Positions 13,020-47,450 of a DNA stretch of 64,000 bases are shown here, one piece after another (position 1 is the stretch's first letter; the number at the start of each line of letters is the position of its first letter). The position numbers and the translations under genes are program-made. The notes beneath the pieces are model-generated. The model was not told the DNA's origin, ran no database searches, and saw nothing but the letters and a program-made list of their open reading frames with translations. The stretch is from Closterium sp. NIES-65 (lineage: Eukaryota > Streptophyta > Zygnematophyceae > Desmidiales > Closteriaceae). The stretch lies in NCBI GenBank assembly GCA_948144175.1, contig CANXME010002317.1, forward strand, positions 1,116,001 to 1,180,000. Direction: 5' to 3'.

Positions 13020-16000
13020 AAGTTCAAGAAGTGAGCAAGTGAGGCAAGACAGGCACAAGACCCAGCTGCGTGCAAAAGCGATGATGATCACAAGGCACAA
13101 GTGCCTTGGTGAAGACATCAGCAGTGTTGGCCTCAGAGGCCACGTACGCAAGTCGCAACTGTCCACGCTGCTGTAGCTCACGAGCAAGGAAGTAGCGGAG
13201 AGCGATGTGCTTTGTCCTGTGCTCCAGTCGCTGCTCTCAACACAAGGCCAGCATGGCCTTGTTGTCTACGTACAGAACTGGAGGAGAACGAGGCGGCTCT
13301 CCATGGTCGGTCAGCAAGTAGGTGAGCCAGCGAAGCTCCTAGGCAGCCATAGCCCCGGCGTAGATCTCAGCCTTACAACAGGAGCCGAGAACAGAAGACG
13401 AGCGAGTAGCCCGCCACGAAACAGAGCCGGAACCAAGGCTGAAGGTGTAACCCTGTGACGACCGCTGCGTAGCCTGGTCGTCAGCCCAAGAAGCGTCCGC
13501 GTGCCCAGTGAGGACCACTGGACTCCGCCCTCCAAGCATTAGCCCCATGCCCGACGTACTGCACAAGTAGCGCAACACCCTCTTCGCTGCAGCCATGTGC
13601 TCTGGTCGGTGTCTCCCAGGAGCAACATAGCGTGCGAGAATGCTAAGAGGGTATGCAAGGTCAGGTCGAGTGCAGGTCATCAGGTACATGAGGCAGCCAA
13701 CAAGCTCTGGATACGAGCCACTCGACTCTACGGACTCATCCGAAGGCAGAGCTGAGAGCGAGTGGCGAGTAGGCAGAGGAGTGGCCTGAGGCGAGGAGTA
13801 CGTGAAGCGGAAGCGCTGAAGGACCTGCTGCACCATGTGTGACTGAGTCAGGGTAATGGTGCGGCGTGCTCTGTCCCGGGTGATCTGCAAGCCAAGGTAG
13901 CTGCGCAGTTCACCCAGGTCTGTGCACGTGTGTCTCTTCTGCAGCTCCGACTTCACGTAAGCGAGTCCAGCAGTGTCAGCAGTGGCAAAGACCAAGTCGT
14001 CGACGTACACGAGGATGTAGAATGGCGGCAAAGAGGTGTCGGTGCGCAGAAACAGCGACGGGTCTGCAGTGGAAGGAGCAAACTCAAGTGCCGCCAGCGT
14101 AGTCCTCAGTGTGTCGAGCCACTTACGCGGCGCCTTGCGGAGACCGTAGACTGGACGCCGGAGACTCCACTGGGTACCAAGAGGGAAAGACCCAGTGAAG
14201 CCAGGTGGGCGACGCAGCCTGATCTCCTCGTGCAGGCTGCCCTGCAAGAAAGCAGTGCTGAAGTCGAGAGAGTGCAGCTCGTAGTCACGGTGAGCAGCAA
14301 CGTGCAGCAGTACCCGAAGAGTGGTCATCTTCGGGGTGGGGGAGAAGGTATGAAAGTAGTCAACTCCCTGCCGCTGACTGAAGCCACGAGCCACGTAACG
14401 CGCCTTGAAGACAGGCGGAGAACCCGGCGGCCGCTTCACCCTGAAGATCCACATGCCACTGACGATGTTAGCCCTAGGAGGGGGAAAAGCGTCAACGTAG
14501 GTGCCTGTGGACTTCCAGGAAGCCATCTCTGCATCCATAGCTGCCTGCCACTGAGAGGAGTAGGGACCCTCTATCGCCTCCGCGTAAGAGCGCGGAGTCG
14601 GGATGTCTAGTGCATCCGGGTCTCCCTCAGGGGTGAGCAGTACAGACGCGAGATGAGGTGAAGCGGCGGCCAGACACTGGAACTCCTCCTGCCTGTCCTC
14701 AAGGACGTCCGTGCCAAGGGCACACTCACCCCCAACGGACGGAGGACAGGCAGACTCAGAATCAACGATAAGACTAGCAGCGTAGTCTAGACGACAGCGT
14801 GCAGCAAAGTTGACGAGCTCAGTAACAAGGGCAGACGCAGCAGAAGACTCGAAGGAAGGGTCAGTAACGGCAGTAGCAAGGAGACGCGTGACAGTAGGAC
14901 TGGCAGCACGAAGAGAGTCCGACTCCGGGTCGGCAAGAGCAGGAAGAGAAGAAGCAGGAGGAGAAGGCAAAGGGGCACGCAGAGGAGCAGTAGACGGACG
15001 CAGAGACATCCGGTGCGTGCCAGGGACAGGAGGAGGACGCTGACGCAAACCGCGACCACTAGTGCGCGCAGCACGAACAGGCGACGCAGGACGAGACGCA
15101 GGCTCACGACGCTCAGCAAGACCTCCAGTCGGACCAGCGTAGGGAGAAGGAGCAGGCAAAGGGGAGGCAGGCTGTAGCTGTGACTGTACAGGCTGTGGAC
15201 CCTCTAAGGGAGTAGGAGGAGGACCAGGAGAAGGTGTAAGACCAAGAACCTGCTGCAGGAGTGGAACGAAGTACGGTCGGGGCCGCCTGGCCACGCCAGA
15301 AACAGCAGGGACAGCACCAGTACCCCCAGCACGAGTACCCGCTCCAGCAGCACCTCCTGCAGCACCTCCAGTAGCTCCAGAACCCCCAACAGCACCTCCA
15401 GCAGCCCCAGAACCTCCAGCAGCACCAGGAGCACTGCCAGTCGGACCGCCAGCGGTAGTCTCAGCGCCAACACGCTCAGCAGCACCAGCTCTAGTAGAAC
15501 CCTAAGGCCCAGCAGCTCCAGTACTCCCAGTATGAGCACCTCCGGGACGCGAGGCAGCAGCACCCTCAGCAGCCGAAGAACCTCCAGCGCGAGCAGCACG
15601 CCTCCAGCGCCGGGCAAACCACTCACGTAGCTCCTGCGGGGAGAGCGGCTCTCGGCGAGACAAAGCACCCGGAGAACCTCCAGGCAAAGAACCTCCAGTC
15701 TCAGCACCCCCAGGCTCAACACCCCCAGGCTCAGCACCCCCAGGCTCAGCACCCCTAGGCTCAGCACCCCCAGGCTCAGCACCCCCAGGCGCAGCACCAC
15801 CAGTCTCAGCACCCCCAGGCTCAGCACCCCCAGGCTCAGCACCCCCAAGCTCCGCACCCCCAGGCTCAGCACCCCTAGCAGGACCAGAGTCACCAGTGAC
15901 CTCGACAGGCTCGACCGCGTCTACCTGGGACACACCTGAAGGGGGGAGGGGGTCTACCGGGGGGGGACCTGGTACCAAGAAGAGCGGGGGTGGGGGGAGG

Positions 16001-16299
16001 GACGGAGTGCGGTAGGGGAAGAGGTGGTAGTAGGGTACCGACTCGTCGAACGTGACGTCCTGAGAGGACAGAACACGGCGAGAGGTGGGGTGGTAGAACT
16101 GCCACCCAGGGGCGTCGGGGGGGAACCCCAGGAAGACGCAGGGAGCAGCGTGAGGGGACAGCTTGTCCGCAGACAAGTCGCGAACAAACGCCCGAGATCC
16201 CCAGATCCGGAACGCCGACGCATCGCCAACCTTCCCCGTCCACAGCAGGGCTGGGGAGGTCTCCGGCCTGGAGACCCTGGGGTGGAGGTTGATCTGATG
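13020..16299 (-). pseudogene. Element D Pol, C-terminal two thirds: integrase end, linker, RT, RNase H
   Basis: Minus strand from 16299: the C-terminal part of integrase (HQINLHPRVS onward), a PFYRLFPYRT-like block (PYYHLFPYRT here), a GAEPG repeat linker (about 15690-15880), an Ala/Gly-rich stretch, reverse transcriptase (about 14620-13900, YVDDLVFA near 14000) and RNase H (13550-13300 and on). The frame is continuous apart from TAG at 15502-15504, TAG at 13339-13341 where sisters have CAG (Gln), and TGA near 13238 where sisters have CGA (Arg). The upstream half continues at 24262 on the far side of element E. Confidence 0.85.
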
Positions 16300-16519
16300 T
16301 GTCGGAAATTCCCTCACCTCTCCTCCCCTCGCCATGTTCCCCTCTTACTCCTCCTCCAGTGCTCTTCACTCTTGTCCGGCCAACCCCCCCCTTGTCTCTT
16401 ACTCCACCTCCTCTGCCTGTGACCCCTGCTTGCTTCCATCTTAGCTCCTGTTTCTTCTTGCTTGTTGCTGCATCTTCTTACTTCTGTGCTCGGTCCTTCT
16501 GATGTGCAGTTACACCTTG
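16300..16519 (-). repeat. Element E LTR subsegment S, outer copy (220 bp)
   Basis: A 220-bp copy of the segment found again at 17100-17319, with one difference that I can see (TCCGG versus TTCGG). It forms the left terminus of the insertion: next to the GATG duplication the minus strand ends CCGACA. On the minus strand it follows the full LTR after the trinucleotide AGG. Confidence 0.8.
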
Positions 16520-17319
16520 AAAAGCTAACCGTGCTTACTCACATCTACGCAATAAACCTACTTACATCTTCATCAGCAATCACCTACGTTTGTTATGGCC
16601 TGTCAAATCCTTCACGCGATTCTTGCTGCAATCACATGAGTAAAACAGAACATACAAACAATGCAGAGAACTATGCCTTACCCCCTTTTATCCTAGCCTG
16701 CGTCCTCCCCCCTCCCTTACTGCTACTCCAAAGAAACCCTTCGAAGGGATGACTTCCGCCGTAGTGAAAGAACAATTTCCCCCTCCTCTCTCCACCACCA
16801 CTTAGCCGCCCATTGCTTGACCTCCAGCTTGTGCCTGCAAATCTAGCTGGCTCGGGCATTCGTCCTGCAAGAAAGCAAACATGCATACAGCACACGAAAC
16901 AAAAGAGCTCCCTCCAGCTGTCCCCGCACCATCTCCCCATGCGTCTATTGGCTGACTTGGCAGCCCAATATCGCCCATCCATCACACCAGCCTCAATCCG
17001 AGTCCCCGATACCTCTTCACTCGACAACCTGTACAAATATTCAGTATATACACATTCTCCGTACTCGTAACCTTATCTGCCTACTGATATTGCGACAGCT
17101 GTCGGAAATTCCCTCACCTCTCCTCCCCTCGCCATGTTCCCCTCTTACTCCTCCTCCAGTGCTCTTCACTCTTGTTCGGCCAACCCCCCCCTTGTCTCTT
17201 ACTCCACCTCCTCTGCCTGTGACCCCTGCTTGCTTCCATCTTAGCTCCTGTTTCTTCTTGCTTGTTGCTGCATCTTCTTACTTCTGTGCTCGGTCCTTCT
17301 GATGTGCAGTTACACCTTG
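16520..17319 (-). repeat. Element E full 3' LTR (S-gc-L order)
   Basis: On the minus strand the LTR starts TGTAACTGCAC (17315) directly after the purine-rich tract GGGAGGGGGC (17320-17329). It passes segment S (17319-17100), the palindrome CGACAGCTGTCG (17093-17104) and segment L (17097-16520), and ends GCTTTTCA. Placement between a polypurine tract and the outer end makes S-gc-L the likely reverse-transcription-defined LTR. Confidence 0.65.
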
Positions 17320-20300
17320 CCCCCTCCCGTGACACTGCGCCGCCCTCGCCCTGGTTACGGGACCTTGATACCCTGCTGCCACTCCGCCGGCCCTGGCCAC
17401 ATTAGTAACATGATCCACCGCGCGCACTGCAGCCTCACTCTCTAGCACCAGCACTCCTGACTCTCTCACCTCCCTAACCGTCCACTGCTGATGTGATAGC
17501 CCCACGTCCAGCCCATCCTTCTTAGGACGTCTGATATACACCTCTTGGCCTTGTTGCAGTGCTTGTGGTGCTCCGCTGGCCCTCTGCTCCTACCGCTGGC
17601 GGTAGCGGTGAATGTCCCTCAGCTGAGCCACATGTAAACTCTCCAGCGCCGCCGGCAACAGCCGCCGCAGGTACTCCCCTCGCACCGCCGCCAAAGCTGC
17701 CCACTTCTCTGCGGTGCCTGCTGTAACCATGTCTGTCAGCATCCGCGGTGCTCCCACGGGTAGGACCGCTTCCCTGCCAAAAAGGAGATGGTATGGTGAT
17801 AAATCCTTTAGGGCGGCCTGCTTGCTAAACCTGTAGCCCGCCATGATCCAGTGGAGGTGCCTGTCCCAGTCACGCTTCCTCGTCTCCCCATAGGCCCGAA
17901 GTCCTCGCTTCAGAGTCTGGATGAGCCTCTCAGTCAGGCCGTCGCTCTGCGGATGATACCTGGACGTGGTGCGATGCGGAATCAGGCACGACGCCAACAG
18001 CTCTTCGAACTCTCCTTGGAACTCGGTGCCTTGGTCCGTCAGTACTTCCCCACATGCCCCGAAGCGTGTCAGCACTTGTTCTTCAAAGGCATCCGCCACA
18101 GCCTCCGCCGTCTTATGGCTCACAGCCCGCACCTCGACCCACTTGCTCACGTGCTCAATCATCACAACCACATATCGGCGTCCTCGCTTGGTGAGAGGCA
18201 GTTCTCCTGCAAGATCTAAGGACCACCGATAGCCCAGCCCCACGATCGGCAGAGGCTGTAGCTCCGCCTTGCTCCTCTCGAATGCCGCCCGGTTTCGAAT
18301 GCACGCCGGATACTTGGCGACCCAGTCCTTGATCTCTTTCCTCATCCCTGCCCACCACCATCCCGTCTGCAGCAGCTGCTGCGTGCGGAGCGGGCCAAAA
18401 TGCCCCAGCTTGTTATGCACTTCCTGTATCACTCCCTCCCGCTCCTTCGGCTCAGGCACCCTCTTCCAGCCGTCTTGCGTCCTGATCTGCACCTGATCCT
18501 GGTACCAGCGGTAGTGTTGCCCCCTGCTCCTGGCCCTGGCTGACACCTGCGCTCCCTCTGAGGTCGCCCCCTTCAGCCATGCAAGTATTTTCGGGTCTTC
18601 CCAGATGTCTGCTGCTCCTGCTTGCTGTTCTTGGCGCAACGGCGTCACTGGATCTGCCACTAGTACCGCCAAGGCCACTTCTGGCGCCGCCGCCGGCGGG
18701 TTCCTGGATAAGCCGTCCACATGCTGCATAGTCTTCCCTGGACGGTGCCGGATGGTAAACTGATACTCTTGCAGCTTCATGGCCCACCTGGCATTCCGTC
18801 CCGTGAGACTCTGGTTCTGCATTAGCCATAGCAGCGGCTGGTGATCTGTCACTAGCGTGAAAGGTCTGCCTTGCAGATACACTCGGAAGTGTCCCACAGC
18901 CCATACCGCCGCCAGCCCCTTGCCCTCGTATGATGAGTAGTTTGCCTCAGCTGGGTTACAGGAACGACTGGCAAAAGCCACCACCTTCTCCTCCCCGCCC
19001 TCCTGCTGGCTGAGAATGGCTCCCATGCCCGTACTACTCCAGTCCGTGTACAGCACGAATGGTAAGTCCGCCCTTGGCAGCTGCAGCATCGCGCCATTCT
19101 TGACAGCTCCCATCAAGTCCTTCAGCGCCTCCTTCTGCTGCTCACCCCATTGCCACTTCGTATCGTCCTTGAGTAGCTTGTTCAAAGGTGCCGCCCTCCT
19201 GCTGAAGTTCTCCACAAACTTGCGATAGTAGCTTAGGAACCCCAGCAGGGCCCTTAGCGAGCTCTTATCCTTGGGCTGCGTCACATGGTCCAGGATAGCC
19301 ACCTTTGCTTGCTGTATCGCCAGTCTGCCCCCTGTTACTTCAAATCCCAAGTAGGTCACCGTCGTGTGTCCGAAGCGGCACTTCTTTGGGTGGCAGGTGA
19401 GTCCCGCCTCCTTGATCCTCCGTAGTGCCTCAGCCAGTCGCTGCACATGTTCTTCTGGGGTAGCGCTGAACACTATGACATCGTCAATGTAGCACAGGGC
19501 CCCAATCATTCCCCGTAGGACCGCATCCATCACTTTCTGAAACAGCAGTGAAGCGTTCTTCAGCCCGAAGGGCATCCTGTTCCACTCGTACGCCCCGTCA
19601 GGGCCGTGGAAGGCAGTCTTGGCTTTGTCAGTCTCCGCGATAGGGATCTGATTGAACCCTTGCCTCATGTCCAGCGTCGAGAACAGCCATGCCTCCGCCA
19701 GTTGGTCGAACAGCTCATCCACCATGGGTGTCGAATATCTCTCTGGGACTGTCACCTTGTTTAGGTCTCGATAGTCACCGCACATCCGGCGTGCTAACAC
19801 CGTCCCCGTGAGATCCATCCTTGCCGCTACCACCGTTGCTGCTGCATACTTCGACTCGGAGCGACGTATGAGCCCTGCCTCCAGCAATTCCAGGCACTTT
19901 TCCTTGCATATTTCCAAGTCCTGCGGGCTCATCCGGCGCCTCTTCTGGTAGACTGGCACCGTCGTGGTTAGCTCGAGTGTCATAACTGCACAGTTGCAGC
20001 ATCCCAATTCCTTGAGCGAATAGGCGAACGTCTCTCGATGTGACGCCAGTAGCTCTTCCACTGATTGCCGGTGCTCCCCTTGCAGCCCGGGACCCAAGTC
20101 CCAGGTGCTCTGGTCTCCTTCCACTCTCACTGCCTCTTCCGCCACTCTTTCGGAGGTCCCTTCTCCTTCTGGGGTCTGCGGAACTTCTTCATTTGTTGCT
20201 GCTTCCCGCGCCATGTAGGCTCGCCCTACAGGTGGCCAGTCCGGTGGGTCGTAGTAGTCGTAGAATTCGTCTCCCATGTCGAAGTCTGAGTCATGGAATT

Positions 20301-20790
20301 CCTCAGGCGTGTCCCCTCTTCCCAACCCGGATTCTTCTTCCATTTCTTCATCCGCCTCAACCTCCTCCTCCTCCTCCTCGCTCTCTTGAGGGTCGGCATA
20401 CCTTCTTGGTATGGCTTCCCGGTCATCTCTCCAGCTGGCCCTCCTGTGCTCCTCCGGGACCCCCCTCCACCATTGGTTTTCTTCCTTCTCTTCCAGTCCT
20501 TCTAGCATCGTCCATGCTTCCGTCTCCTTGTTTGCCGCCAGCAACGTCTGGGGCCTGATAGCAGTCGCCTTGCCGATACGCCTCTCCAGCCACTTCCTTT
20601 CGAGATGGTTGGCCATGGTCATGAACAACCATTGCAGCGCGTTCAAATCCATGACCCGGCCCAGAGCCTCCTTCCTCTCCTTCTCGGTCATTTGTTCACA
20701 AGCTGTTGCGCCTGCCAGGAATCCCATGGCCAGCTCCCTCTCTTGAGCCGTAGGCTCTTCCCATACTCCACGTGCCTGATCGTATACCAT
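17278..20790 (-). CDS. Element E Pol: methyltransferase C-terminus, RT, RNase H, integrase
   Basis: ATG at 20790 opens 1066 residues to a TAG at 17590-17592. The same frame then continues about 100 more residues to 17278, reading a VYIRRPKKDGLD-type integrase C-terminus, so the TAG is probably an acquired stop. Residues 1-60 are not RT: they match the last methyltransferase motifs (EEPTAQERELAMGF and an ALGR...LQWLF block, like motifs IX-X of DNMT3). An acidic linker follows (about 136-180), then reverse transcriptase (about 280-500, FSTLDMRQGFNQ and YIDDVIVF at 434-441), RNase H (about 560-690, YTDWSSTGMGAIL), the zinc region (NKLGHFG...) and integrase core (WSLDLAG, LTDQGTEF, QSDGLTERLIQ) to about 1000. 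No chromodomain is evident. Confidence 0.9.
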
Positions 20791-23653
20791 GCCCGGATCT
20801 TCCCCCTTTTCTGAAGCCCCTTGCTTTCTCGTACGACACCAGCGTCGGCCATGCCTCTCTTGGTTCCCCCACTTTGTTACAGGGGTATAGCGTGGGGTGA
20901 TCTGCTTCCTTCACCGGCACAGCCATCCTGCCTGGTTCCAGTATGTCATCCACTCGCCGCGCCCTTGGCCGCTCCATCCGTGATAGCTGGTACCTCAGAG
21001 CCGCTTCTGGCACTACGTTTTGCCAGTACCTCCTTGGCCGATGTGACCTGCTCCCATTTTGCGCCGCATCCCATGCCACCCCTGCCCCCAGCTCCTCTGT
21101 AATTTCGGCGTTGGCTGCTTGTATCGCCGGGTGAGGGTTGTCGGCTAGGTCCACGTTCTCAATGATGTAGGCCACCTCCCCTTGCCGCTTCTTGATCATT
21201 TTTAGCACCCGCACCAGATCTCTGAACTGCGTGCTCCTCTCATCTCCCATGCCTCTACCCTTTCCTGCACGCGATAGCCCCTGGCAACTCCATCCCGCGA
21301 TTACCAGATCGATCCGTCCCCATTGCGCCAGCATACTATCGTCGATCTCCTCCGCCCCGCGGCACAACCATTCAGCCCCCCGTTCCGCCGCATCTTCCAT
21401 CAGCTGTTCAGGATATCTAGCCTTCAGCAGCTTCACGTGGTGCCAGGCCATCAGGTTTGCGTTGCCGTCGTTGTCGACGTATAGGTACTTGGCCACCGAG
21501 TGGCCTGACTTCAGCACCGCTGCTAGCCCTGTGGCTATTCCCCCGTACAGTTCTAGGATCACCAGCGGCTTCTGCAGCGCTCTCAGGTTTAGCACCGGCT
21601 CTCGGAGATTATCGCTGGCCCCCCAGATCTCCTCATACTGCTTCCTGGCTACCTCCATTTGTCCCATCTCCTTCCATGTCCGGATGCTCAGCTCTTCTTC
21701 CAGCGGCTTCTCTGTGGCCTGGTAGGCCTCTCTCGGTTCCCTCCTGATGAATTGCACCGGTAGCTCCGCCAGCTCACCATCGTTCTCCCAGTATGTAGCA
21801 CGGTACTTCAGCCGTTCTTCCCACATGCAGATGGTAGTACCAATGGTGAATAGGTACTCCACCCCCAGCAGCAAGTCATAATCTTCCGATGTCGAGATCC
21901 CACAATGCATCCGCACGATACACTCCTCCTGGTGCCCCGGCCGTATCACAATCTCCACCGTACTCCGTGTTTTCGGCATCCACTTAGCTGTACCTCCCTC
22001 AGCTGTCATCAGCAGGTAGCCCTCCGATATGACTCGGTCCTCTCGATCCAACCCCAGCAGCCTTGCCATGGGCGCCCCGATCAGCACGTTGTGAGCTCCA
22101 GTGTCCACGATCGCCTGCTTGACTTTGACGCCTCCAATGCTCATCACTCCTGGTTCCACCACTAGCACAGATGGCTGACATGCCATCCTCTCCAGAGGAT
22201 GACGTCGCGCAGCCCCAGCAGCCCTTTCCTCGTTGGTGTCTCTCCTTGGCCCTCGCTCCCGTACTGGGGTTTCTTGTGGGAAATATCGACACCGTGCTCG
22301 TAGTCCCATTTCATCCCTCTCTCTCACTGGTCGGGCCATCAGTGCGAAACTGGCCTCGCTTCCCTCGTCTTTCTCCTCATCGGTTCGCGCTAGCATAGCA
22401 TTTCCCTTCGGCTCTGATCCAGACATCTCTTCCAGCTGCCTTTGTAGTCGGGCAATCTGCGCTTTGACCTCTTCGGGATCTCTTCGCGACCTCCCTTCCC
22501 TTCGGGTTGCATAGCAGTCCTTCCCTTGGTGCCCCTTTCTACCGCAACGGTCACAGGTAGGCGCCTCAGGGCAGTCCCTCCTCAGATGCTCCTCGCTCCC
22601 ACAGGTGGAGCACGCCGGGGGGTTACGACATTCTCGCCGCAGGTGTCCCAGCTGGCCGCAGTTATGGCAGCGTCGCTCTTCTCCCGGCCCACGTGGTGGC
22701 TTCTCCCGTTCCGCTGGTGTGGCTGCCCAGGCTGGCCTCCTTCTCTCACTCCCCCTTTCAGCCGTTGTTTCAATCTCGCATAGCCTTCGCCCCACCTCCA
22801 CCCGTTTCACCACTTCATACACCTCTTTCAGCGTAGCTCGCGCTCCCATTTTGAAGACCCGAACCGCTACATCTCGTCGCAGCTCGTAGTGCAATCCATT
22901 TAGGAACTTGCTGACCAACCGACTCGAGTCGTGGCAGCTCATGTCTTCCGCTAGTTCCACCAGCCGACCGTAGTAGGCCAATAGCGATTCTCCTATGCGA
23001 CGACGGAATTCTCTGAATTCCGCCACCCTTTCTGGCGTCTGCGTCGGGAATTGATCTTCCAGCAGCGCCAAAAAACGAGTGGTCGGATCTCTCTCTCCTG
23101 GTGCTGCCCGCGCGGTCCATTCCAGCAGTTCCCTCCGACTGAGCCGATAGAAGGTCTCCGCTTCGCCTGTAAGAGTGTTCGCGAGACCTCTGAAGAATTC
23201 CTCCGGGTCCAGCCGATCTCTTTCCCATCGAGCTCTCAGGTTATCCAGCTGCATCACGTAGTTCTTAACCGTTGGACCTCGCCGCATATCACCAGAGAAG
23301 CGTTCTGGGACTTCGATCTTTGGCAGGAGTGTGTACTTCCACCGCTGCGCAAAGGCGTCTTCTTGCCATGACGCGCTCCGCTGGTAAGAGCCAGTCGGTC
23401 GTCCTTCCTCTGCATCTCGCATCGGTCGTCCTTCCGATCGCGCATCCTTCTTCACTGCTTCCGCGGATCCCCGCTCTCCGCCTTCAGGCCGATTCACTCC
23501 TTCCGCTTCCCGCCTTGGCGAGCCATCGTCTCGAGCTTCGTTAGCCCTCGTGTCGGTGCCCTCGTTCATCATGCCCGACTGTTTCTTCACCGTAGCCTCC
23601 GCGCTCTCGCTTTCCGTTTCTTCGAAGTATTCCGTCCCGCCCCTTGTGCGCAT
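20696..23653 (-). CDS. Element E Gag-protease-DNMT3-like cytosine methyltransferase
   Basis: ATG at 23653 opens 985 residues. A retrotransposon Gag domain spans about 115-290. Three CCHC zinc knuckles sit at 329-342, 348-361 and 367-380. A retropepsin-like protease has VDTGA at 516-520. Residues about 697-950 form a cytosine-5 methyltransferase: motif I LELYGGIATGL (700-710), motif IV AGWSCQGLSRAG with the catalytic Cys at 790, motif VI ENV (832-834) and motif VIII SHRPRRYWQN (870-879). The IATGL and HRxRYxWxN wording is characteristic of DNMT3/DRM-type enzymes. The usual Pro before the catalytic Cys is Ser here. The last about 35 residues are out of frame: the methyltransferase end lies in the overlapping Pol frame, +1 relative to this one. 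Expected role: methylate the element's own cDNA or its target chromatin in the nucleus. Confidence 0.9.
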   Translation of the reverse strand: MRTRGGTEYFEETESESAEATVKKQSGMMNEGTDTRANEARDDGSPRREAEGVNRPEGGERGSAEAVKKDARSEGRPMRDAEEGRPTGSYQRSASWQEDAFAQRWKYTLLPKIEVPERFSGDMRRGPTVKNYVMQLDNLRARWERDRLDPEEFFRGLANTLTGEAETFYRLSRRELLEWTARAAPGERDPTTRFLALLEDQFPTQTPERVAEFREFRRRIGESLLAYYGRLVELAEDMSCHDSSRLVSKFLNGLHYELRRDVAVRVFKMGARATLKEVYEVVKRVEVGRRLCEIETTAERGSERRRPAWAATPAEREKPPRGPGEERRCHNCGQLGHLRRECRNPPACSTCGSEEHLRRDCPEAPTCDRCGRKGHQGKDCYATRREGRSRRDPEEVKAQIARLQRQLEEMSGSEPKGNAMLARTDEEKDEGSEASFALMARPVRERDEMGLRARCRYFPQETPVRERGPRRDTNEERAAGAARRHPLERMACQPSVLVVEPGVMSIGGVKVKQAIVDTGAHNVLIGAPMARLLGLDREDRVISEGYLLMTAEGGTAKWMPKTRSTVEIVIRPGHQEECIVRMHCGISTSEDYDLLLGVEYLFTIGTTICMWEERLKYRATYWENDGELAELPVQFIRREPREAYQATEKPLEEELSIRTWKEMGQMEVARKQYEEIWGASDNLREPVLNLRALQKPLVILELYGGIATGLAAVLKSGHSVAKYLYVDNDGNANLMAWHHVKLLKARYPEQLMEDAAERGAEWLCRGAEEIDDSMLAQWGRIDLVIAGWSCQGLSRAGKGRGMGDERSTQFRDLVRVLKMIKKRQGEVAYIIENVDLADNPHPAIQAANAEITEELGAGVAWDAAQNGSRSHRPRRYWQNVVPEAALRYQLSRMERPRARRVDDILEPGRMAVPVKEADHPTLYPCNKVGEPREAWPTLVSYEKARGFRKGGRSGHGIRSGTWSMGRAYGSREGAGHGIPGRRNSL

Positions 23654-23682
23654 ACTATCACCACCGATGATTGTTTGTATGT

Positions 23683-24261
23683 GAAAAGCTAACCGTGCTT
23701 ACTCACATCTACGCAATAAACCTACTTACATCTTCATCAGCAATCACCTACGTTTGTTATGGCCTGTCAAATCCTTCACGCGATTCTTGCTGCAATCACA
23801 TGAGTAAAACAGAACATACAAACAATGCAGAGAACTATGCCGTACCCCCTTATATCCTAGCCTGCGTCCTCCCCCCTCCCTTACTGCTACTCCAAAGAAA
23901 CCCTTCGAAGGGATGACTTCCGCCGTAGTGAAAGAACAATTTCCCCCTCCTCTCTCCACCACCACTTAGCCGCCCACAGCTTGACCTCCAGCTCGTGCCT
24001 GCAAATCCAGCTGGCTCGGGCATTCATCCTGCAAGAAAGCAAACATGCATACAGCACACGAAAATAAAGAGCTCCCTCCAGCTGTCCCCGCACCATCTCC
24101 CCATGCGTCTATTGGCTGACTTGGCAGCCCAATATCGCCCATCCATCACACCAGCCTCGGTCCCAGTCCCCGATACCTCTTCACTCGACAACCTGTACAA
24201 ATATACAGTATATACACATTCTCCGTACTCGTAACCTTATCTGCCTCCTGATATTGCGACA
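23683..24261 (-). repeat. Element E LTR subsegment L, outer copy (about 579 bp)
   Basis: On the minus strand it starts TGTCGCAATATC at the right terminus, next to the GATG duplication, and ends GCTTTTCA just before the Gag leader (CATACAAACAATC). It matches 16520-17097 almost throughout but lacks segment S in front of it. No standard TGG primer site immediately follows, although TGGTGATAG occurs about 18 bases further in. Confidence 0.75.
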
Positions 24262-25891
24262 GATGCGCCGCATACCTGACTGCAAACGGCCACAGAAAAT
24301 GGGGGGCAGCCGCATGCATCATAGACGTACGAGCGACGTCCATGACCATGCCAATGCGGCGCTCTGCAATCCCATTTTGCTGCGGTGAGTCCGGAAGCGT
24401 GAAGGTCTGACGGATGCCTCGCGCACGACAGTAGGCACGCAGAAGGCCAGAGGAGAACTCTCCGCCCCTGTCCGAGTGCAGACGCAACACAGGAAAGTCC
24501 GAGCCAAAGCTCTGCCTGAGCTCGAGACGAGCTGCGCGGATCAAGTCGATCAGCACCTCAGTGACATCACCCTTGCTGCGCAAGGGGAAGAATGTGGTGT
24601 AACGCGAGTAGTCGTCAACCACCAACAGGAAGTAGCGCTCGTGACCGAGTCCACGGACGCGGGCAGGGCCCCACACGTCCATGTGAAGCGTCTGCAATGG
24701 AGCCTCTGTCGGAGGAAACTGGGAGGAGTGAGGGGCAGCACGCTGGCGCCCCTCGACACAGGGGACACAGGCAGGGCCAGGGCCCTGAGGAAGGGGAGGG
24801 AGGGACCGGGGAAGACCAGACACAAGAAGACGGGAGGCCATGCCTCTGAGCCGAAGCAGAGAGGGGTGACCCAGGCGGTGGTGCCAGAGGAGAGTCTCGT
24901 GAGACAGGCGACGACACGAACAGGGGGCAGACTCAGGACCAGACCTGGACGCTGCAGCAAACACCTGACCTGACGAGGGGACCCTACCAGACTCAGTAAC
25001 TGGAGGAGAAGCAGTGGTCAGTGTGTACAGGCTCGACCCTGGCTGACGTGTAAACGTAGCCAGGTGACGACCCGTGCTAGCCTCTGAGCAGTGCGTCACT
25101 CGCTGACGAGCAGGGGTGAACTGGTGGACTCCCGCATCCTGTAGGTCAGCACCACTCACCAAGTTCGTAGAGAACGAGGGGAGGTAGAGACCAGACAGGG
25201 TGCCAGAGGGAGCCGCCGGACACGGGAGGACTGTGGAGAAGCGAGACAGAACAGGACCCCCAGAGGGGTCAGCCAGGGACACCGCAACCGGCCAACTAAG
25301 CGGCGTGAGTGTGGTGCGGTCCCGAAAGAAGAAGCGAGACGCTACGGAGTCAAGGGTGAAGGTGTGGGAGGCCGAAGCCGACGCAGTACCTGAGAGCGCA
25401 GACTCACTAGTACCTGAGAGAGTAGCCTCACCAGTACCTGAGAGCACAAACGCACTAGCACCTAGAGCAGAAGCCTCGCTGGCACCTAGAGCAGTAGTAC
25501 CAATGCCCGGGTCGGGCGGGAAACACCGGTTACAGTCACCCTCATCACTAATGGTCACAGCATACATAGCAGCAAGGAGAGCATCAAAGTCAAGATCAAA
25601 GATAACTACACCAGCCCTAGACAGCTCTCCCCAGCGGGGGATCTCTGCGGCCTCCGGGAACTGCTGGCGCCAAGCGTCCGTCAGGCGGCCAAAGCAGCGC
25701 TGGGCGGTGTGGGTACCCCCACACTGCTCTCCAGCGCGGTCGCCAGTGCGAAGAACGTAGATGCAGGGACCAAAACCCCCACCACGCTGACGCTGCGTGT
25801 ACCACTCATGGAGCTGCTGAGGGGTAGGGACGTCGCGAGAACGCTGCTGCTGCTGCTGGCGCTGACCACCCCCAGTGCTGCTCCGCTGCAA
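24262..25891 (-). CDS. Element D: Gag C-terminus, protease and integrase N-terminal part
   Basis: The minus-strand frame runs from 25891 into the element E insertion. It reads the Gag Cys/His motif (C-x13-C-x3-H-x4-C at 25694-25765), an EIPRWGELSRAG block, a protease in which the usual DSGAS reads DSVAS (about 25345, Gly to Val, probably inactivating), the pre-integrase zinc region (LLWHHRLGHPS and CVPCVEG) and integrase. The integrase keeps its catalytic blocks (HMDVWGP, SDRGGEF, NGIAERRIG). At 24262 the frame enters E and ends in its LTR, giving a spurious chimeric tail. Gag N-terminus is in a different frame because of G-tract length change. Confidence 0.85.
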
Positions 25892-28404: not shown

Positions 28405-29740
28405 CAAAAGGGGCACAAGGCGAGTTCAAGAGTTCACAGAAGTATATATAAAGCGTGCAAACAAAGCAATCAGAGAACTCAAGACTACGTAAGGCGGGAA
28501 CTTGTGTCAACGGGACCTAAATGCACACAAGACCTCTAGTGGTCACAAGGCGAAAGTGCCTTGGTGAAGATGTCTACAGCGTTGGCCTCGGACTCCACAA
28601 AGGCGAAGCGAGCATGTCCACGCCTCTGCAACTCTCGCAAAAGAAAGTACATGACGTTGATGTGCTTCACTCTGCTCTCCAGTCGCGGCTCTCGACAGAG
28701 CCGGGAGGGGGAACAGCGTCAACGTAGGTGCCTGTGGATCGCCAAGACGCCAACTCTGAGTCCATGGCCGCTTTCCACTGAGAGGCCCAATCCCCTGACA
28801 TTGCCTCACGGTACGTGCGAGGAGTCGGTATGTCAAGGGCGTCGGGGTCTCCCTCTGGGGAAAGCAGCATGGCATAGAGAGAGGGGGAAGAGGCTGCCAG
28901 GAACTCCAGCTCAAACTGCGCGAGACACACTTGACGGAACAGGACCAGGGGGGGGAGGGGTGGGGGTACCGGACGAGCGGTAGCAGGGGGAAGAGAGGGT
29001 GCGAGGAGGGGGGGAGGGGGAACCGGGAGACCTCGACAGGGGCACCGAGTGTAGTAGGACACTGACTCGACGAACCGGACGTCACGGGAGTCTAGGAACT
29101 GGTGGAGAGGCGGGTGGTAAAAGGACCAGTCGGCTGAGGCTATTGGGAAACCAAGGAAGACATAGAGGACGGCGCGAGCCGAGAGCTTGTCCGCAGAGGT
29201 GTCGCGGACAAGCCCAAGGCAGCCCCAAACACGAAAGGCTGACCCAACACCAAGGGACCCGGTCCAAAGATTGGTCGGAGAAGCCTCTGGCCGCGAGACG
29301 CACGGCTGGAGGTTCAGCTGGTGAGCGGCGTAGCGAACCGCGTAGGGCCGCAGAAAATGAGGCGCTCGGGCATGAATCATGGACGTGCGGGCGATGTCCA
29401 TGACCAAGCCAATGCGGCGCTCAGCAACCCCATTCTGCTGTGGGGACTCCGGCAGCGTCCAGGACTATACGATGCCCTATTTGCCGCAGAATCCGCCAAG
29501 AATGCCTGAGCAAAACTCACCCCCACGGTCAGAGTGGAGACAGGAGACACAACGGCCACGAGTGCCCTCAGTGGCTAGAAGCCACTGGATCAGCGTAGAT
29601 GTCCCCTCGGACTACTTCGCGAGAGGAAACACCGTGGTGTACCTGGAGAAGTTGTCGACGACCACCAGAAAGTAGCGCTCCCTCTCATGTCCCTGCGTAG
29701 GTGCAGGGCCCCAAACATTCAGGTGGAGTGTGTGGAAGAG
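28405..29740 (-). pseudogene. Element G: internally deleted copia (integrase, linker, RT start, RNase H end)
   Basis: From 29740 downward: integrase from the HLNVWGP block through SDRGGE-like sequence and NGVAERRIG to about 29050, a short proline-rich linker without the Gly/Ala repeats, and the first part of reverse transcriptase to the VDAVPPPG block at about 28695. A direct jump then leads into the RNase H C-terminus (RLESRVKHINVMYFLLRELQRRG) and 3' untranslated sequence to 28405. The RT catalytic core and most of RNase H are deleted. Both LTRs are missing. Confidence 0.75.
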
Positions 29741-32700
29741 CCGTGGCCAACTGAATATTGCAGCCCCACCCTTGAGGTTGCCATGCAGTACCTCACCAGC
29801 CTCTCTGCTGCATCAAGGTGCTCTTGAAGGGGCCTAGACACCACACGAGCCAGCTGCGAAACCGCAAACGAAATATTGGGGCGAGTGTTGACCGAAGCAT
29901 ACATCAAGCTCCCCACCATTGACTGGAACCGACGCTGCAACTCGGGCTCCAACACCTCACCCTCCTCTTCATCAAAGTGTAGCTGAAACCCTGAGGGTAG
30001 AGGAGTCTTCACACTCCTCCCTTCCTCCAGCCCATACCTCTCCCCCATGGCTGCAAGGTACTTGTGTTGGTGAAGCCTCAACCATCCCTTCACCTCGTCC
30101 CGCTCCACTTGAAGACCAAGGTAATACCCTACTGGTCCAAGGGCCTTGCATTTAAAGGTCCCCTTCAGCTTCCCTTGCACCTCCTTGATCCTCTCTAGTG
30201 ATGGAGAGAAGAGGAGAATGTCATCGACGTAGACAAGAAGAAACACCTTCTCCTCCTTCCCCTCGGTCATGAAGAGACTCTCGTCGCACCCGCTGACTTT
30301 GAAGCCAAGAGCCTCCAAAGCCTCCACCAGCCTTGCATACCAGCACCTTGGAGCTTGTTTGAGGCCATAGAGGGCCTTGTTGAGCCTGCAAACACGTCCG
30401 CTCCCATCGTCATACCCCTCTGGCTGCTTCATGTAGATCTCCTTATCTACCACGCCGTAGAGGAAAGCCGTCTTCACATCCATTTGCTCCACCTTCCAAC
30501 CACAAACGGCAGCTGCTGCCAGCAACACCCGAAGCGTAGGAGCCTTGGCAACAGGAGCAAACACCTCCTTAAAGTCAACCCCCTCCCTCTGCTGGAAACC
30601 CTTGATCACAAGTCCTGTTTTGCGCCTCTCCAACTTCCCCTCCGCATCGGTCTTCACACGTAATATCCACGTGCAATCCAATGCCTTTCTTCCAGGGGGC
30701 AGATCAGTGAGGGTCCATGTTCCATTCTCCATGAGGCTCTGAAACTCATCCTCCCTTGAAGCCAACCAAGCCTCTCGATCATCTCCAGCAAGTGCTTCCT
30801 TCATTGAAGCCGGTTCATGAGGTAAGTTGACACCGAAGCAACAAATCTGCTCCATCTCTCCCTCGGCTCCCTTCTCATCATCTTCCTCCTCCTGGACCAG
30901 CAATGCCTTGGGACCCCCAAGCCTTTCATACTTGAGGAAATCCCTTGGGTGAGCAGCTCTCTTGGGCCTCTCCTTGGCTGCACCCTCCTTAGCTCCACCG
31001 CGGACAGTACCACGCTTCCCTTGGGTTGTCCGCCTTGATGGAAGTGAAGGGGATGATGTTGGCTGCTGCACCTCCTCCCCGGCATCACCTCTCTCAGCTA
31101 CAGGGGCCTCCTCTTGCTGCAAAACTCCATCCACATCTGTTGCCTCCCCTTCAGCACCTCCCAAGTCATGTGACACCTCCGTTACCTCTGAAGATGAAGA
31201 CAACTCGATGGGAATGAGGAGTGGGTCATTCGTTCCCACCTCTATTCCGAGCGGAATGGTGACCTTGCTCCTCCCTCGCTCCAACCACTCCTTGAACATG
31301 AGCCCCTCCATGAACTTGGCATCTCTGGTGGTGAAGATGGTGTTGGCTTTTGGGTCCCACATGAGCCACCCTTTGCTCCCTTGTGCAAGTCCCAAATGAA
31401 CAGCCCACACCGCCGCCGCTTGAAGCTTGTCACGCTTCTCCTTAGGGACGTGCACGAGTCCCATGCACCCGAAGACTCGAAGCATATCCACCAGGGGCTT
31501 CTTGCCTCTCCACTTCTCCATAGGGACCCAATGCTGCCCTCCCACATGAGTCAATACTCGGTTCTTGATGACGGTGGCATGGCGAATAGCGAGGGGCCAG
31601 AATCGTAAGGGTAGACCCGAGTCTACCAACATCGTTCTCCCACCCTCCATGATGGTCCGGTTCGCTCTCTCTGCCACGCCATTGGATTGAGGAGTGTAGG
31701 CCGTGGTGAGCTGCTGTTTGATGCCGTGCCGCTTCAGCCAGCTCCGGAACTCCGCTCCCAAGAACTCCCCACCACGGTCGCTACGAATCGCCTTCACCCG
31801 CTTGCCGCTCTCTCGCTCCACCAAGGGCAGCCACTCTTCAATGATGATCCTTGCAGCATCACTTTTCTTTGCAAGTGGAAAGGACCAGGTGAGCCTTGTG
31901 TTATCATCCACCATGGTCATGGAATACAGGGCCCCACCATCTCCCTTCACCTTCATGGGTCCCACGAGATCCACATGCACGAGCTCCACTGGGTCACTCG
32001 ACTTCCCCTCCACCGAATGGAAGGGAAACCGTGAAAACTTGCTGGTCAAGCAAGTCTCACAAGATCCCACCTCCTTGGGCTCCCCCTTTATCATCAGCCC
32101 CTTGACTCTTTCCTCCTTGAACAGCTGCTGCAACTGAGGTAGCGCCACGTGGCCAAAGCGACGGTGTGCGGTGAGCCAATCCGTCTCACCCGTGCTAGGA
32201 GTTACACTTGGTAACTCAGCCCTTCCATGCCCAAGGAGCCCACCATCACTATCATCACCACCTCCTCCATTGTCCACGTGGTTAACACGCCCTCCTCTCA
32301 CACCTCCAGCAGCCAAGCGCGCAGCCGCCTCCTTCCATGGCAGCACCGGTATCTCCCACATGGACCGGTGCATGTCCTTGCCGCCTCGGAGATCCCACAA
32401 CACGCGCCCATCCAGAGTTGCCTTGAAAACCTTTGTGCCCAACATCTCCATCTTCATCCCTGCCTCACTTAGGGCCTTGGTAGAGAGGAGGTTGGCACAC
32501 AATCCAGGAACAAGGAGAACACGCTTCAGCCCCACAAGCCTCCCATCCGCACCCATGAACATGGCTCTCCCCTCGCCACGCACGGGTACAACTTGGCCGG
32601 TGGCTGAAACGACAATGGCTGCCTTTGATGGCCTAACTTCATCCAGTAGATCCTCTCGGTTGGTCATGGTCATGAAGGCTCCCGTGTCGATGACCCAATG

Positions 32701-33807
32701 GGAGGAGTGGCGAAGAGCAACCTTGCTGGCCGGCACAACCATGTCCTCGGAGCACGCCTCTCCTACATGGTAGAACATGCCGCCGTATCCGCCAGCACCT
32801 CCATCGCCCTCCTCACTGCCCACGCTTTCTCCCATAGCTCCATGAACACCCTTGGAGCCCTCAATTGATGGCTGACCAGGCCTCCAGCCGTCAGGTAGCT
32901 TGCGGCACTTGAACCATGGGTGCCCTTCCACATGGCAATACCAACACTTGCCGCCACACCGCTTGCCTCCCTTGTTGCCACGCTTCCCTCCCAAATGCTG
33001 CTCCCCTCCAGAGCCTTCCTTGGCCTTGCCTTTCTTGCTGCCACGCCCTTTGAAGCCCTTCATGCCGTAGGCTGAACCTCCACCTTCACCGGCAGCGGCG
33101 GTCAGCTCCTTCCTCCGAAACTCCTCTTGAAGTACTTGCGCGCGAATCCACTCAAGGGACCACAAGTCCTTCATGCCATTAAGGTTGACCACCAAGGGCC
33201 CCCACGACTCCGGCAGCAGGGAGAGAGCCTTGTAGCACTTGATTTTTTCAGGGTAGTCCACACCAGCAGCAGAGAGCTTCACATAGAGGTCCCTGAGTTG
33301 ATCGAACGCTCCTTGTACGGCATCACCCTCGTTGATCTTCACCGTATGGAGTTGTCGCTCGAGCACCACTACCATAGCTTCGCTGCTGGGGGCATGGACA
33401 TCCTTCAATATCTTCCATGCCTTAGGACCACACTCAACTTCCTTGATGAGATGTTTGATGTGGTGCAGCTGGTTGGATGAGAGGCATTGGGAGAGAAGGA
33501 AGAATCCATCCTTGGACCGGCGATCCCATTCTTTGGTCGCTCCTTCGCTCGCAGGCCTCTTCAATTCTCCATCCATCACTTCAAGCAGCCCATAATGGTT
33601 GAAGAGGAGCTCCATCCTGAAGCTCCATGATGCCCAATCCTCCCCAGAGAACTTCTCCAGGTTGAATGCCTTCACATCATCCTTAGCTGATGTTGAAACG
33701 GAAGCCATTGGTGCAGATCCGCCAGCAACGCCTCTTCCCGCTACCCCAGCGCCTCTCACGCCACCACTGCCACTGGGACCAGCTGGAGCAGAACCTTCAG
33801 CCTCCAT
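29719..33807 (-). CDS. Element H Gag-Pol polyprotein (copia), RNase H truncated
   Basis: ATG at 33807 lies 22 bases after the primer site; the open frame itself extends slightly further upstream. It encodes about 1360 residues in one frame: Gag with an LEKFSGEDWASWSFRME start, one standard zinc knuckle (CWYCHVEGHPWFKC), protease (VIDTGAF), pre-integrase zinc region (HRRFGH, CETC), integrase (HVDLVGP, SDRGGEF, NGVAERANR) and reverse transcriptase (MDVKTAFLYG, LVYVDDILLF, KALYGLKQAPR). It ends in the connection region at VGLQYS; the last about 10 residues come from element G. RNase H and the 3' LTR are gone, so it cannot move by itself. This is a different family from the glycine-tract copias, with AT/GC balance and codon use closer to ordinary genes. 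Confidence 0.9.
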   Translation of the reverse strand: MEAEGSAPAGPSGSGGVRGAGVAGRGVAGGSAPMASVSTSAKDDVKAFNLEKFSGEDWASWSFRMELLFNHYGLLEVMDGELKRPASEGATKEWDRRSKDGFFLLSQCLSSNQLHHIKHLIKEVECGPKAWKILKDVHAPSSEAMVVVLERQLHTVKINEGDAVQGAFDQLRDLYVKLSAAGVDYPEKIKCYKALSLLPESWGPLVVNLNGMKDLWSLEWIRAQVLQEEFRRKELTAAAGEGGGSAYGMKGFKGRGSKKGKAKEGSGGEQHLGGKRGNKGGKRCGGKCWYCHVEGHPWFKCRKLPDGWRPGQPSIEGSKGVHGAMGESVGSEEGDGGAGGYGGMFYHVGEACSEDMVVPASKVALRHSSHWVIDTGAFMTMTNREDLLDEVRPSKAAIVVSATGQVVPVRGEGRAMFMGADGRLVGLKRVLLVPGLCANLLSTKALSEAGMKMEMLGTKVFKATLDGRVLWDLRGGKDMHRSMWEIPVLPWKEAAARLAAGGVRGGRVNHVDNGGGGDDSDGGLLGHGRAELPSVTPSTGETDWLTAHRRFGHVALPQLQQLFKEERVKGLMIKGEPKEVGSCETCLTSKFSRFPFHSVEGKSSDPVELVHVDLVGPMKVKGDGGALYSMTMVDDNTRLTWSFPLAKKSDAARIIIEEWLPLVERESGKRVKAIRSDRGGEFLGAEFRSWLKRHGIKQQLTTAYTPQSNGVAERANRTIMEGGRTMLVDSGLPLRFWPLAIRHATVIKNRVLTHVGGQHWVPMEKWRGKKPLVDMLRVFGCMGLVHVPKEKRDKLQAAAVWAVHLGLAQGSKGWLMWDPKANTIFTTRDAKFMEGLMFKEWLERGRSKVTIPLGIEVGTNDPLLIPIELSSSSEVTEVSHDLGGAEGEATDVDGVLQQEEAPVAERGDAGEEVQQPTSSPSLPSRRTTQGKRGTVRGGAKEGAAKERPKRAAHPRDFLKYERLGGPKALLVQEEEDDEKGAEGEMEQICCFGVNLPHEPASMKEALAGDDREAWLASREDEFQSLMENGTWTLTDLPPGRKALDCTWILRVKTDAEGKLERRKTGLVIKGFQQREGVDFKEVFAPVAKAPTLRVLLAAAAVCGWKVEQMDVKTAFLYGVVDKEIYMKQPEGYDDGSGRVCRLNKALYGLKQAPRCWYARLVEALEALGFKVSGCDESLFMTEGKEEKVFLLVYVDDILLFSPSLERIKEVQGKLKGTFKCKALGPVGYYLGLQVERDEVKGWLRLHQHKYLAAMGERYGLEEGRSVKTPLPSGFQLHFDEEEGEVLEPELQRRFQSMVGSLMYASVNTRPNISFAVSQLARVVSRPLQEHLDAAERLVRYCMATSRVGLQYSVGHGSSTHST

Positions 33808-33830
33808 ATTTACCCAAGAACAGAGTAGAA

Positions 33831-33844
33831 CAGCTCTGATACCA
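33831..33844 (-). other. Primer-binding site of element H
   Basis: On the minus strand TGGTATCAGAGCTG begins two bases after the LTR end (AACA). This is the standard site complementary to the 3' end of initiator tRNA-Met used by many copia elements. Confidence 0.8.
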
Positions 33845-33846
33845 CT

Positions 33847-34670
33847 TGTTATAGTCTGCATTCCACTTAGAGGTCGCAGATGCCCATGAAACCCCCTAAG
33901 CAGAATCTGACGTCTTCAAACTGCCTCTGTTCAAAACGCCGTCACGATCAGCTCCGAAAACATACGAGACTGAAACTTCGACAGAGGTTAGCCCTAGGTG
34001 TCTGCTTTCCAACGGTATATTTGTTGGTATTATCAGAGGTGTGTGCACTACGCAGTGAATGAAAACGTAAGCTCGGCTGAAAAAAACGTTTAGTCTCATT
34101 GATGCAAGGAAGAGGTGAGTACAACATTGCCTAGGGGACTCATAAGGAGTTGGGTCATCCTGGGAACTCAGAGAAGGTTGAGTCTTAGGGGAGAAAGGCT
34201 AGAGAAGAATGGGAAACCTCCTAGCTAGGTCAGCAAAGCCAACCACACTTGGATGTTCAAAGCTGTACTCAAGGCTACCAATAGTGAGTCAAGCCAACAT
34301 GAGTCAGCTTGTCTTCCCACTTGCATCCTCTTGCAAGCTGCTTCCAGGAAGACCACACTTCTCAAAAGGAGGGTTGTAGAGTCCCACTAGACCAACTGTA
34401 CTTCTTGTCTCATTCTCTGTCCCTGCACCATTGGCATGACAACAATGAAAGGGTGGCAAGGGAAATGCTGCCAACAGTGCACCATAACCACGGAACAGTG
34501 AATTTCGGCAGCTGTCACGCAATGCTCAGATGTTGGATCGTTCTGAAACTTGGTGACCACCTGCACAGCGCGGCAAAGGACTGCCAGATTGAATTTCAGA
34601 CCAATCAAATCTCGGTAGACGAGTCAGCAGCCGAAATGGTGAACTCGGGTGTTACCAAAAAGGAGTAACA
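33847..34670 (-). repeat. 5' LTR of element H (824 bp)
   Basis: On the minus strand it runs from TGTTACTCCTTTTTGG to GACTATAACA, bounded inside by the primer site. It is much longer than the 120-150 bp LTRs of the other copias. No partner copy exists in the window, so the outer boundary rests on the TG start alone. Confidence 0.6.
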
Positions 34671-46620: not shown

Positions 46621-47450
46621 CTGCAGCCTTTGGAGCGGCGCTCCTAGCACTGGGGTGCCGCCCGCTAGAGGCCCTGGTGCTGCTGGAGGTACTGGAGCCT
46701 CTAGTCCTGAAGGTGCTCGTACAGGCGGTACTGGAGCTGCTGGGACTGGGGGTTCTGCTGGAGCTGGACCTGGAGCTGCTGGAGCTGGTGCTACTGGAGG
46801 TGCTGCCGGTGCTGGAGCTGCTGGAGGTGCTGCTAGTGCTGGAGCTGGAGCTGGAGGTGCTGGAGGTGCTGGGGCTGCCGGTGGAGCTGAGGCCACTGGG
46901 CCTACTTGAGTTGGTGTAGCTGCTGACCCAGGGGTTGGTGCTGCAGGGGCTGGAGCTGGAGGTGCTGACGCTCGTCCTCCTGCAGGTGCTGGAGCCGACG
47001 GTGCGGTTGGAGCTGGTACTACTGGGGGTCCTGGAGTTGGCACTACTGGAGCTGCTGGTAGTGCTCCGGGAGTTGGAGCTCCTGCTAGGGGTTCTGGTGC
47101 TGTCTCTGCTGGTTCTGCAGGCGCTTCACGACCGCGACCGTACTTCGTTCCGCTCCTTCAGCAGGTTCTTGGTCAGCCTCCTCCTCTTTGTCCTGCTCCC
47201 TCCTTAGAGTGTCCTCCGCCTGTCCAGTCGCAGGCACAGTTGCAGCCTGCCTCGCCACTTCCTAGTCCTTCTCCCTACACTGGTCCGACAGGAGGTCTTA
47301 CGGAGCGTTGTGAGCCTGAGTCTCGTCCTGTGTCGCCTGAGGCTCGTTCTGTGTCACCTGTTCGTCCTGCTCGCACTCGTCGTCGTGTCCCGCGTCAGCG
47401 TCCTCCTACTGTCCCAGGCACTCACCAGATGACGCTTCATCTTTCCACTG
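46621..47450 (+). pseudogene. Element K integrase-RT linker, Gly/Ala repeats
   Basis: In the correct frame (46655 onward) this is a Gly/Ala-rich spacer (GAGGAGAAGGA units) with one TGA near 46910, followed by the conserved segment RPRPYFVPLLQQVLG and a Pro/Arg-rich stretch (ERCEPESRPVSPEA). The Leu/Glu/Val-rich reading of the same DNA in the neighbouring frame is a shadow. Confidence 0.7.

Follow-up and report, generated by a model that had tools for sequence, protein, structure and literature searches.

Hosts silence transposons by cytosine methylation, and an element that carries a methylating enzyme of its own inverts that logic. A 64,000-nucleotide stretch of the genome of the alga Closterium sp. 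NIES-65 (contig CANXME010002317.1, positions 1,116,001 to 1,180,000; the whole stretch is called the window below) poses the question of whether a retrotransposon within it encodes such an enzyme in its polyprotein and, if so, what the enzyme does for the element. A sequence-only reading of the locus had proposed a Gypsy retrotransposon with a DNMT3-like DNA methyltransferase (DNMT) in its polyprotein, and Pfam, a dedicated profile and the motif positions all bear this out. On the minus strand, positions 24261-16300, the element encodes Gag, three CCHC knuckles, a DTGA protease, a DNMT3-like C5-methyltransferase, reverse transcriptase (RT), RNase H and a DDE integrase (Table 1). The observation is real and well supported, and elements of this kind were published in 2018. 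With moderate confidence, we read the locus as a damaged copy from a Closterium Gypsy family that would have captured a DNMT between protease and RT and kept it, probably for methylation of complementary DNA (cDNA).

A DNMT3-like methyltransferase in a Gypsy polyprotein

The first open reading frame (ORF1) matches the Pfam family DNA_methylase (PF00145, E 2.1e-6, 27.8 bits, curated cut-off 22), as the sequence-only reading had anticipated, together with zf-CCHC in three stretches; ORF2 matches RVT_1, RNase H, Integrase_H2C2 and rve. The gag-asp_proteas match in ORF1 (23.2 bits) falls under its cut-off of 28.2, and the relatives P0005 (35.2) and P0006 (34) lie above it. Pattern searches recover the knuckles (also found by Pfam) and DTGA after Gag where they had been described, and likewise motifs I (LELYGGIATGL, residue 700), IV (AGWSCQG, 786, with the catalytic Cys at 790), VI (ENVD, 832) and VIII (HRPRRYWQN, 871) in ORF1, as well as ERELAMGF (17) and LGRVMDLNALQWLF (43) in ORF2. 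In a profile built from nine relatives, residues 690-951 of ORF1 correspond to positions 4-266 and residues 1-65 of ORF2 to positions 269-333, so this is a single domain cut by a change of frame, with its closing motifs at the start of the next frame ahead of RT, as had been claimed.

The profile is nearer DNMT3 than other C5 methyltransferases, and the predicted structure of the relative P0055 folds like DNMT3 (predicted local distance difference test, pLDDT, 88). DNMT3A and DNMT3B are the top profile and fold matches, share the unpermuted motif order and are about 24% identical to the modelled P0055. The earlier assignment to a DNMT3/DRM family thus holds for DNMT3 on profile and motif order; a DRM origin is ruled out, since the motifs are unpermuted (I, IV, VI and VIII in ORF1, the last ones in ORF2). 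Unlike DNMT3A and DNMT3B, ORF1 has no Pfam match to ADD or PWWP up to E 1, and its motif IV reads Ser-Cys-Gln where those enzymes have Pro-Cys-Asn. Because the Pro-Cys found in C5 methyltransferases at large is absent, we use the label DNMT3-like.

The element is Gypsy by its Pol domains and not by its repeats, which are split. It has the Ty3/Gypsy order of RT, RNase H and DDE (rve) integrase and a short target-site duplication of the sort that an integrase produces (CATC on both sides). In place of two equal long terminal repeats (LTRs) around an internal region, the element strand reads A1 - ORFs - B1 - GC - A2 - B2, a DIRS-like A-ORFs-B-A-B arrangement with A1 at the 5' end, A2 and B2 at the 3' end and B1 ahead of A2, which rules out conventional LTRs. 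A DIRS or other tyrosine-recombinase element is ruled out as well, rve being found and PF00589 giving no Pfam match up to E 1. The termini are TGTCG and CGACA, each flanked by CATC, and the element is nested within a copia element whose frame, read by eye across the empty site (RYAAH-QINL), resembles the RYAAHQLNL of another copia ORF in the window. Given the 4-bp duplication and the restored copia frame, an element with DIRS-like split repeats inserted here as a DDE integrase would insert it. The repeat copies differ at 14 of 580 bases (A) and 1 of 220 (B), which points to an insertion probably of no great age. To what the sequence-only reading had described we add the split repeats, the duplicated target site and an in-frame stop at 17590.

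Ty3 (PDB 7q5b) is alike in the order and sequence of RT, RNase H and integrase (E 3.3e-84); unlike the window element it has no DNMT, and its LTRs are ordinary. KnitGypsy-Dnmt3 of Klebsormidium nitens (de Mendoza et al. 2018, PMC5890265) likewise combines Gypsy domains, an unrearranged Dnmt3-type methyltransferase in Pol and DIRS-like repeats, so that, with this A-ORFs-B-A-B layout and the Gypsy domains in print, the kind of element is already known. Klebsormidium belongs to a different algal class from the window element (Zygnematophyceae), and the likeness is one to the published description. According to the same paper, SymbioDIRS-Dnmt3 also places a Dnmt3 in a retrotransposon polyprotein between A-coding-B-A-B repeats, with two domain orders; it is a dinoflagellate element with a tyrosine recombinase, in contrast to the DDE integrase found here. 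The statement in the sequence-only reading that DNMT-bearing retrotransposons had been reported is therefore correct for Klebsormidium and a dinoflagellate (de Mendoza 2018, PMC5890265). According to PMC12344493, DNMT3 members are also carried by Copia-type LTR and DIRS retrotransposons, in streptophytes and in dinoflagellates; according to PMC6338049, retrotransposons equipped with adenine or cytosine methylases have been found in groups that include green algae and charophytes, and have not been found in land plants, e.g. tracheophytes.

The Closterium family, its relatives and their layouts

All 22 matches of a first protein search were from Closterium; a second returned 28 (18 of them named Closterium) and a third 215, and no Klebsormidium name occurs among the best 120 of these 215 that were listed. 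The DNMT profile matches 55 Closterium records (90%-identity clusters), a count that covers DNMT-bearing records, as it was obtained via that profile. The closest DNMT, P0001, is 81% identical to that of the window. P0023 (Closterium NIES-53, 1928 residues) is a single protein comprising Gag, CCHC, DNMT, RT, RNase H and integrase, its gene model lacking the DTGA part of the protease, and P0005 (NIES-54) holds CCHC, protease, DNMT and the start of RT. Among the matches listed, P0054 of the liverwort Calypogeia fissa stands at 38%, followed by a gap and then by more distant enzymes from E 1e-15. P0054 is a retrotransposon-type DNMT of 329 residues on a 25-Mb contig, 73% identical to P0046, and possibly represents a DNMT-bearing element, or a remnant of one, in a land plant.

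The DNMT trees contain the window and those 40 of 81 rows that span 270 or more profile positions, with DNMT3A (PDB 6w89) and ten sequences taken as prokaryotic as outside rows, three of which are dropped in the second tree. The retrotransposon DNMTs form one group against these outside rows (99/99, 41 rows; 100/100, 42 rows, in the second tree, which includes the locus L004 described below). Of the phylogeny that had been proposed, the separation from DNMT3A has thus come out, on trees that are without plant DRM, Klebsormidium and dinoflagellate sequences. Closterium is a single clade (100/100, 18 rows), in which the window is sister to P0001 (100/99). A tree of RT and RNase H, with two outside rows only, gives the same three groups: Closterium, group ii and group iii. 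The first DNMT tree recovers group iii as a clade (9 rows, 97/87; three without a known layout), as does the RT tree (4 rows, 98/99), and the second DNMT tree does not.

Within the extent of each protein, Closterium and group ii have the DNMT after protease and before RT. P0035 and P0038 have it after RNase H and before integrase, and P0033, P0037, P0040 and P0041 are consistent with that order as far as they extend; on the second tree (24 rows, layouts labelled by hand) this relocation amounts to one change. Identity of Closterium to group ii is 0.40 for DNMT and 0.54 for RT, and to group iii 0.39 and 0.38. Whether the DNMT may have moved later than the RT in the RNase H-integrase layout is ambiguous. 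A PHD finger follows the integrase in P0033, P0035, P0038, P0040 and L004. Past the PHD finger, the tail of P0040 contains a VEPCHGQGG...ASPHF-like stretch that by eye resembles a Rossmann methyltransferase, as do the tails of P0033 and P0035; Pfam (E up to 0.01) and NCBIfam (E up to 1) name nothing in these three tails.

L004 (CADCWO010000201.1, 9285 bases, ends identical over 127) was the one match among 167 in a scan of prokaryote genomes and is deposited in a cyanobacterial genome bin; our guess is that it comes from a desert-crust alga such as Klebsormidium. Its ORF1, read round the overlap, is open over 1346 residues, with protease and DNMT by Pfam and Gag and CCHC by eye. At L004:3489-3497 follows TAG CAA TCA, and then, open in the same frame, RT, RNase H, integrase and PHD. 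Plant viruses obey a CARYYA rule for readthrough, and the context of this UAG fits it, which would make the stop readthrough-like. As the DNMT ends ORF1 (Gag-protease-DNMT) and RT lies beyond the UAG, the enzyme would be made at the level of Gag and not of Pol, which fits a role in the particle. The non-coding part of L004 also contains CGACAGCTGTC, the B1-GC-A2 junction of the window (first spotted by eye; 0 in 200 shuffles), suggesting that L004 shares the split repeats. In the window itself the chance mean for CGACAGCTGTC is 0.19, which is less telling, and there the junction is defined by the repeats. In IMG/VR, the DNMT alignment gave 3 loci out of 24 matching stretches (25-39% identity), and the RT-integrase alignment matched 0 of 47.

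Since DNMT-bearing retrotransposons are published (PMC5890265, PMC12344493, PMC6338049), novelty is confined to the Closterium branch and the features named here and below. In the Closterium literature, PMC10407611 makes no mention of methyl, DNMT, gypsy or retrotransposon and PMC11096116 none of DNMT, DNA methyl or retrotransposon, and in PMC13419823 Closterium occurs in the reference list only. The searchable literature, mostly as entries rather than opened articles, yielded no Closterium branch, second DNMT layout with PHD or liverwort match, nor a UAG between DNMT and RT like that of L004 or a replacement of the motif IV Pro. One more algal genus, in which 55 records match the DNMT profile, and relatives whose layouts differ together provide natural variants for probing what the enzyme does for the element.

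Possible roles of the methyltransferase

As the most likely role we infer that the enzyme methylates the cDNA of its own element inside the particle. From an intact copy, the DNMT would be translated within the Gag-Pol precursor, freed by the protease and packed alongside RT; it could then methylate either the new cDNA, prior to integration or as it occurs, or the site of integration, and the new copy would thereby enter the genome resembling the host's methylated DNA. De Mendoza 2018 (PMC5890265) proposes that cDNA is methylated in the case of SymbioDIRS, for whose domains CG methylation in yeast is reported. Identity between window and P0023 is 72% in Gag, 56% in protease (81 residues only), 64% in DNMT, 68% in RT, 82% in RNase H and 72% in integrase, vs. 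42 and 37% in the linkers. Identities of DNMT and RT are correlated (r 0.83 with 17 of 19 rows, the short RT of P0005 and P0041 having excluded these two; r 0.88 with 12 Closterium rows), a value reached in each case by 0 of 5000 permutations. Several points weigh against a cDNA-methylating enzyme. Mean identity among the Closterium rows is lower for DNMT (0.56) than for RT (0.73), DNMT being the quicker to diverge, and CpG decay as a trace of self-methylation was not found (observed/expected 0.76 in the element, 0.70 in the window); by reading, 3 of the 14 differences between A1 and A2 resemble transitions at CpG. De Mendoza 2018 also reports that the KnitGypsy domain was inactive in yeast, a result its authors call inconclusive, and that DNMT-less elements retrotranspose in the same genomes (PMC5890265). 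Lastly, the missing motif IV Pro could signify altered or lost activity.

This last point bears on the strongest rival, namely that the DNMT is a passenger or a catalytically dead domain that the polyprotein retains for structural reasons or to bind nucleic acids. The Ser before the catalytic Cys noted by the sequence-only reading is present in the window. The 36 Closterium rows that cover the site (19 of the 55 do not) have Glu in 33, Ser in 3 and Pro in none. Other retrotransposon rows have Pro in 17 and Glu in 9 of 26, and 79 of 80 more distant listed matches have Pro, the remaining one being unmatched by the pattern. At least four changes between Pro and non-Pro are required on the tree (52 labelled rows, outside rows taken as Pro). 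The window Ser is therefore one step of a wider replacement, and the loss of Pro across the covered Closterium rows is a specific and testable catalytic oddity. A dead domain would also suit P0010, P0011 and P0019, in which His replaces the Asn of ENV, and the negative yeast result for the Klebsormidium domain, which its authors call inconclusive. On the other hand, the catalytic Cys, the Gln, the Glu of ENV, RxRxxW and the motif I columns are invariant or nearly so, DNMT divergence tracks that of RT, and the P0055 model is DNMT3-like. On balance, we regard a passenger or dead domain as unlikely, though deserving some weight.

Action in trans, on host chromatin or the insertion site rather than on cDNA, appears a little less probable still. 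PHD fingers are chromatin-reading modules, and their position behind the integrase in the sequences listed above would suit such a role; Pfam, however, gave no PHD match in any of the ten Closterium proteins scanned or in the ORFs of the window, and the DNMT sits in a polyprotein with RT.

Beyond the cDNA-methylation reading favoured for Closterium, a broader and tentative picture, which we hold as doubtful, is that green-algal retrotransposon DNMTs are one old mobile lineage, captured a single time, inherited together with the element and relocated once in the polyprotein, that reached a liverwort chromosome, its catalytic (motif IV) loop retuned several times independently from Pro to Glu for a substrate that cellular DNMT3 does not use, e.g. 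an RNA:DNA hybrid or single-stranded cDNA within the particle.

Integrity of this copy and its surroundings

Most likely, both the frame change within the DNMT and the stop that interrupts the integrase tail are damage specific to this copy. Among annotated proteins, whose gene models may be spliced across breaks, 32 of 39 Closterium rows reaching past profile position 280 cross positions 250-285 in one match, as do 23 of 23 other rows. Past the stop at 17590 the frame remains open for 103 codons, with 60% identity over 86 residues to the end of P0023. With relatives reading across the DNMT break and a matching tail past the stop, the copy is most likely broken twice, and it should be unable to produce a complete DNMT or a complete integrase; it is possible that the frame break is an assembly error. 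Programmed frameshifting within the DNMT would instead join ORF1 and ORF2, with a mostly truncated methyltransferase being made. The break does lie inside a domain well kept on both sides, but the uninterrupted matches of the relatives, with the caveat on spliced models, and the second lesion in the same copy lead us to reject this as very improbable. A chance capture or chimeric assembly confined to a single copy, to which nesting in copia could have misled an assembler, and which the sequence-only reading had named as its refutation, is refuted to the point of being negligible by the relatives: many records across several Closterium strains, the 55 profile matches among them, and the junction CGACAGCTGTC in L004, a contig of another organism.

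Table 1 Features of the retrotransposon in the window, in order along the element strand.
Feature	Positions	Strand	Remarks
Target-site duplication CATC, 5' side	24262..24265	-	copia frame runs on across the empty site (by eye)
Repeat A1, 580 bp, starts TGTCG	23682..24261	-	14 mismatches in 580 vs. A2
TATA-like TATAAG in A1	23854-23849	-	
ORF1: Gag, CCHC x3, protease, larger DNMT part; 985 residues	20696..23653	-	
CCHC zinc knuckles x3 (ORF1 329-380; starts 329, 348, 367)	22514..22669	-	Pfam and pattern
Aspartic protease (ORF1 505-600, DTGA at 517)	21854..22141	-	Pfam score under curated cut-off; pattern
DNMT3-like methyltransferase, first part (ORF1 690-951), motifs I, IV (Cys 790), VI, VIII	20801..21586	-	
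DNMT, last part (ORF2 1-65), ERELAMGF and LGRVMDLNALQWLF	20596..20790	-	profile 269-333, E 1.5e-25
ORF2: DNMT end, RT, RNase H, integrase	17590..20790	-	
RT core (ORF2 336-485)	19336..19785	-	PF00078, E 5.5e-32
RNase H (ORF2 575-676)	18763..19068	-	PF17917, E 2.3e-34
Integrase H2C2 and rve core (ORF2 781-947)	17950..18450	-	Pfam
Integrase tail past in-frame stop, 103 open codons	17281..17589	-	60% identity over 86 to P0023 end
Repeat B1, 220 bp, ends CGACA	17100..17319	-	
Repeat A2, 580 bp; GC links B1 to A2 (CGACA-GC-TGTCG)	16518..17097	-	
Repeat B2, 220 bp, element 3' end	16300..16519	-	1 mismatch vs. B1
Target-site duplication CATC, 3' side	16296..16299	-	

The window is dense in copia sequences, with copia-domain ORFs at 3760-5103, 13339-15294, 29719-33861, 44841-46919 and 54507-59012. 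A copia ORF about 5.5 kb from the element is 94% identical over 211 residues to a Closterium NIES-54 protein, which, with the all-Closterium matches of the first protein search, places the host in Closterium on protein evidence. The copia ORF adjoining the element contains a 15-base repeat array (PGGAE repeats, window 15643-15923). Four Closterium gene models, P0013, P0020, P0021 and P0047, join copia-type Pfam domains to a DNMT element and are perhaps further nested insertions into copia.

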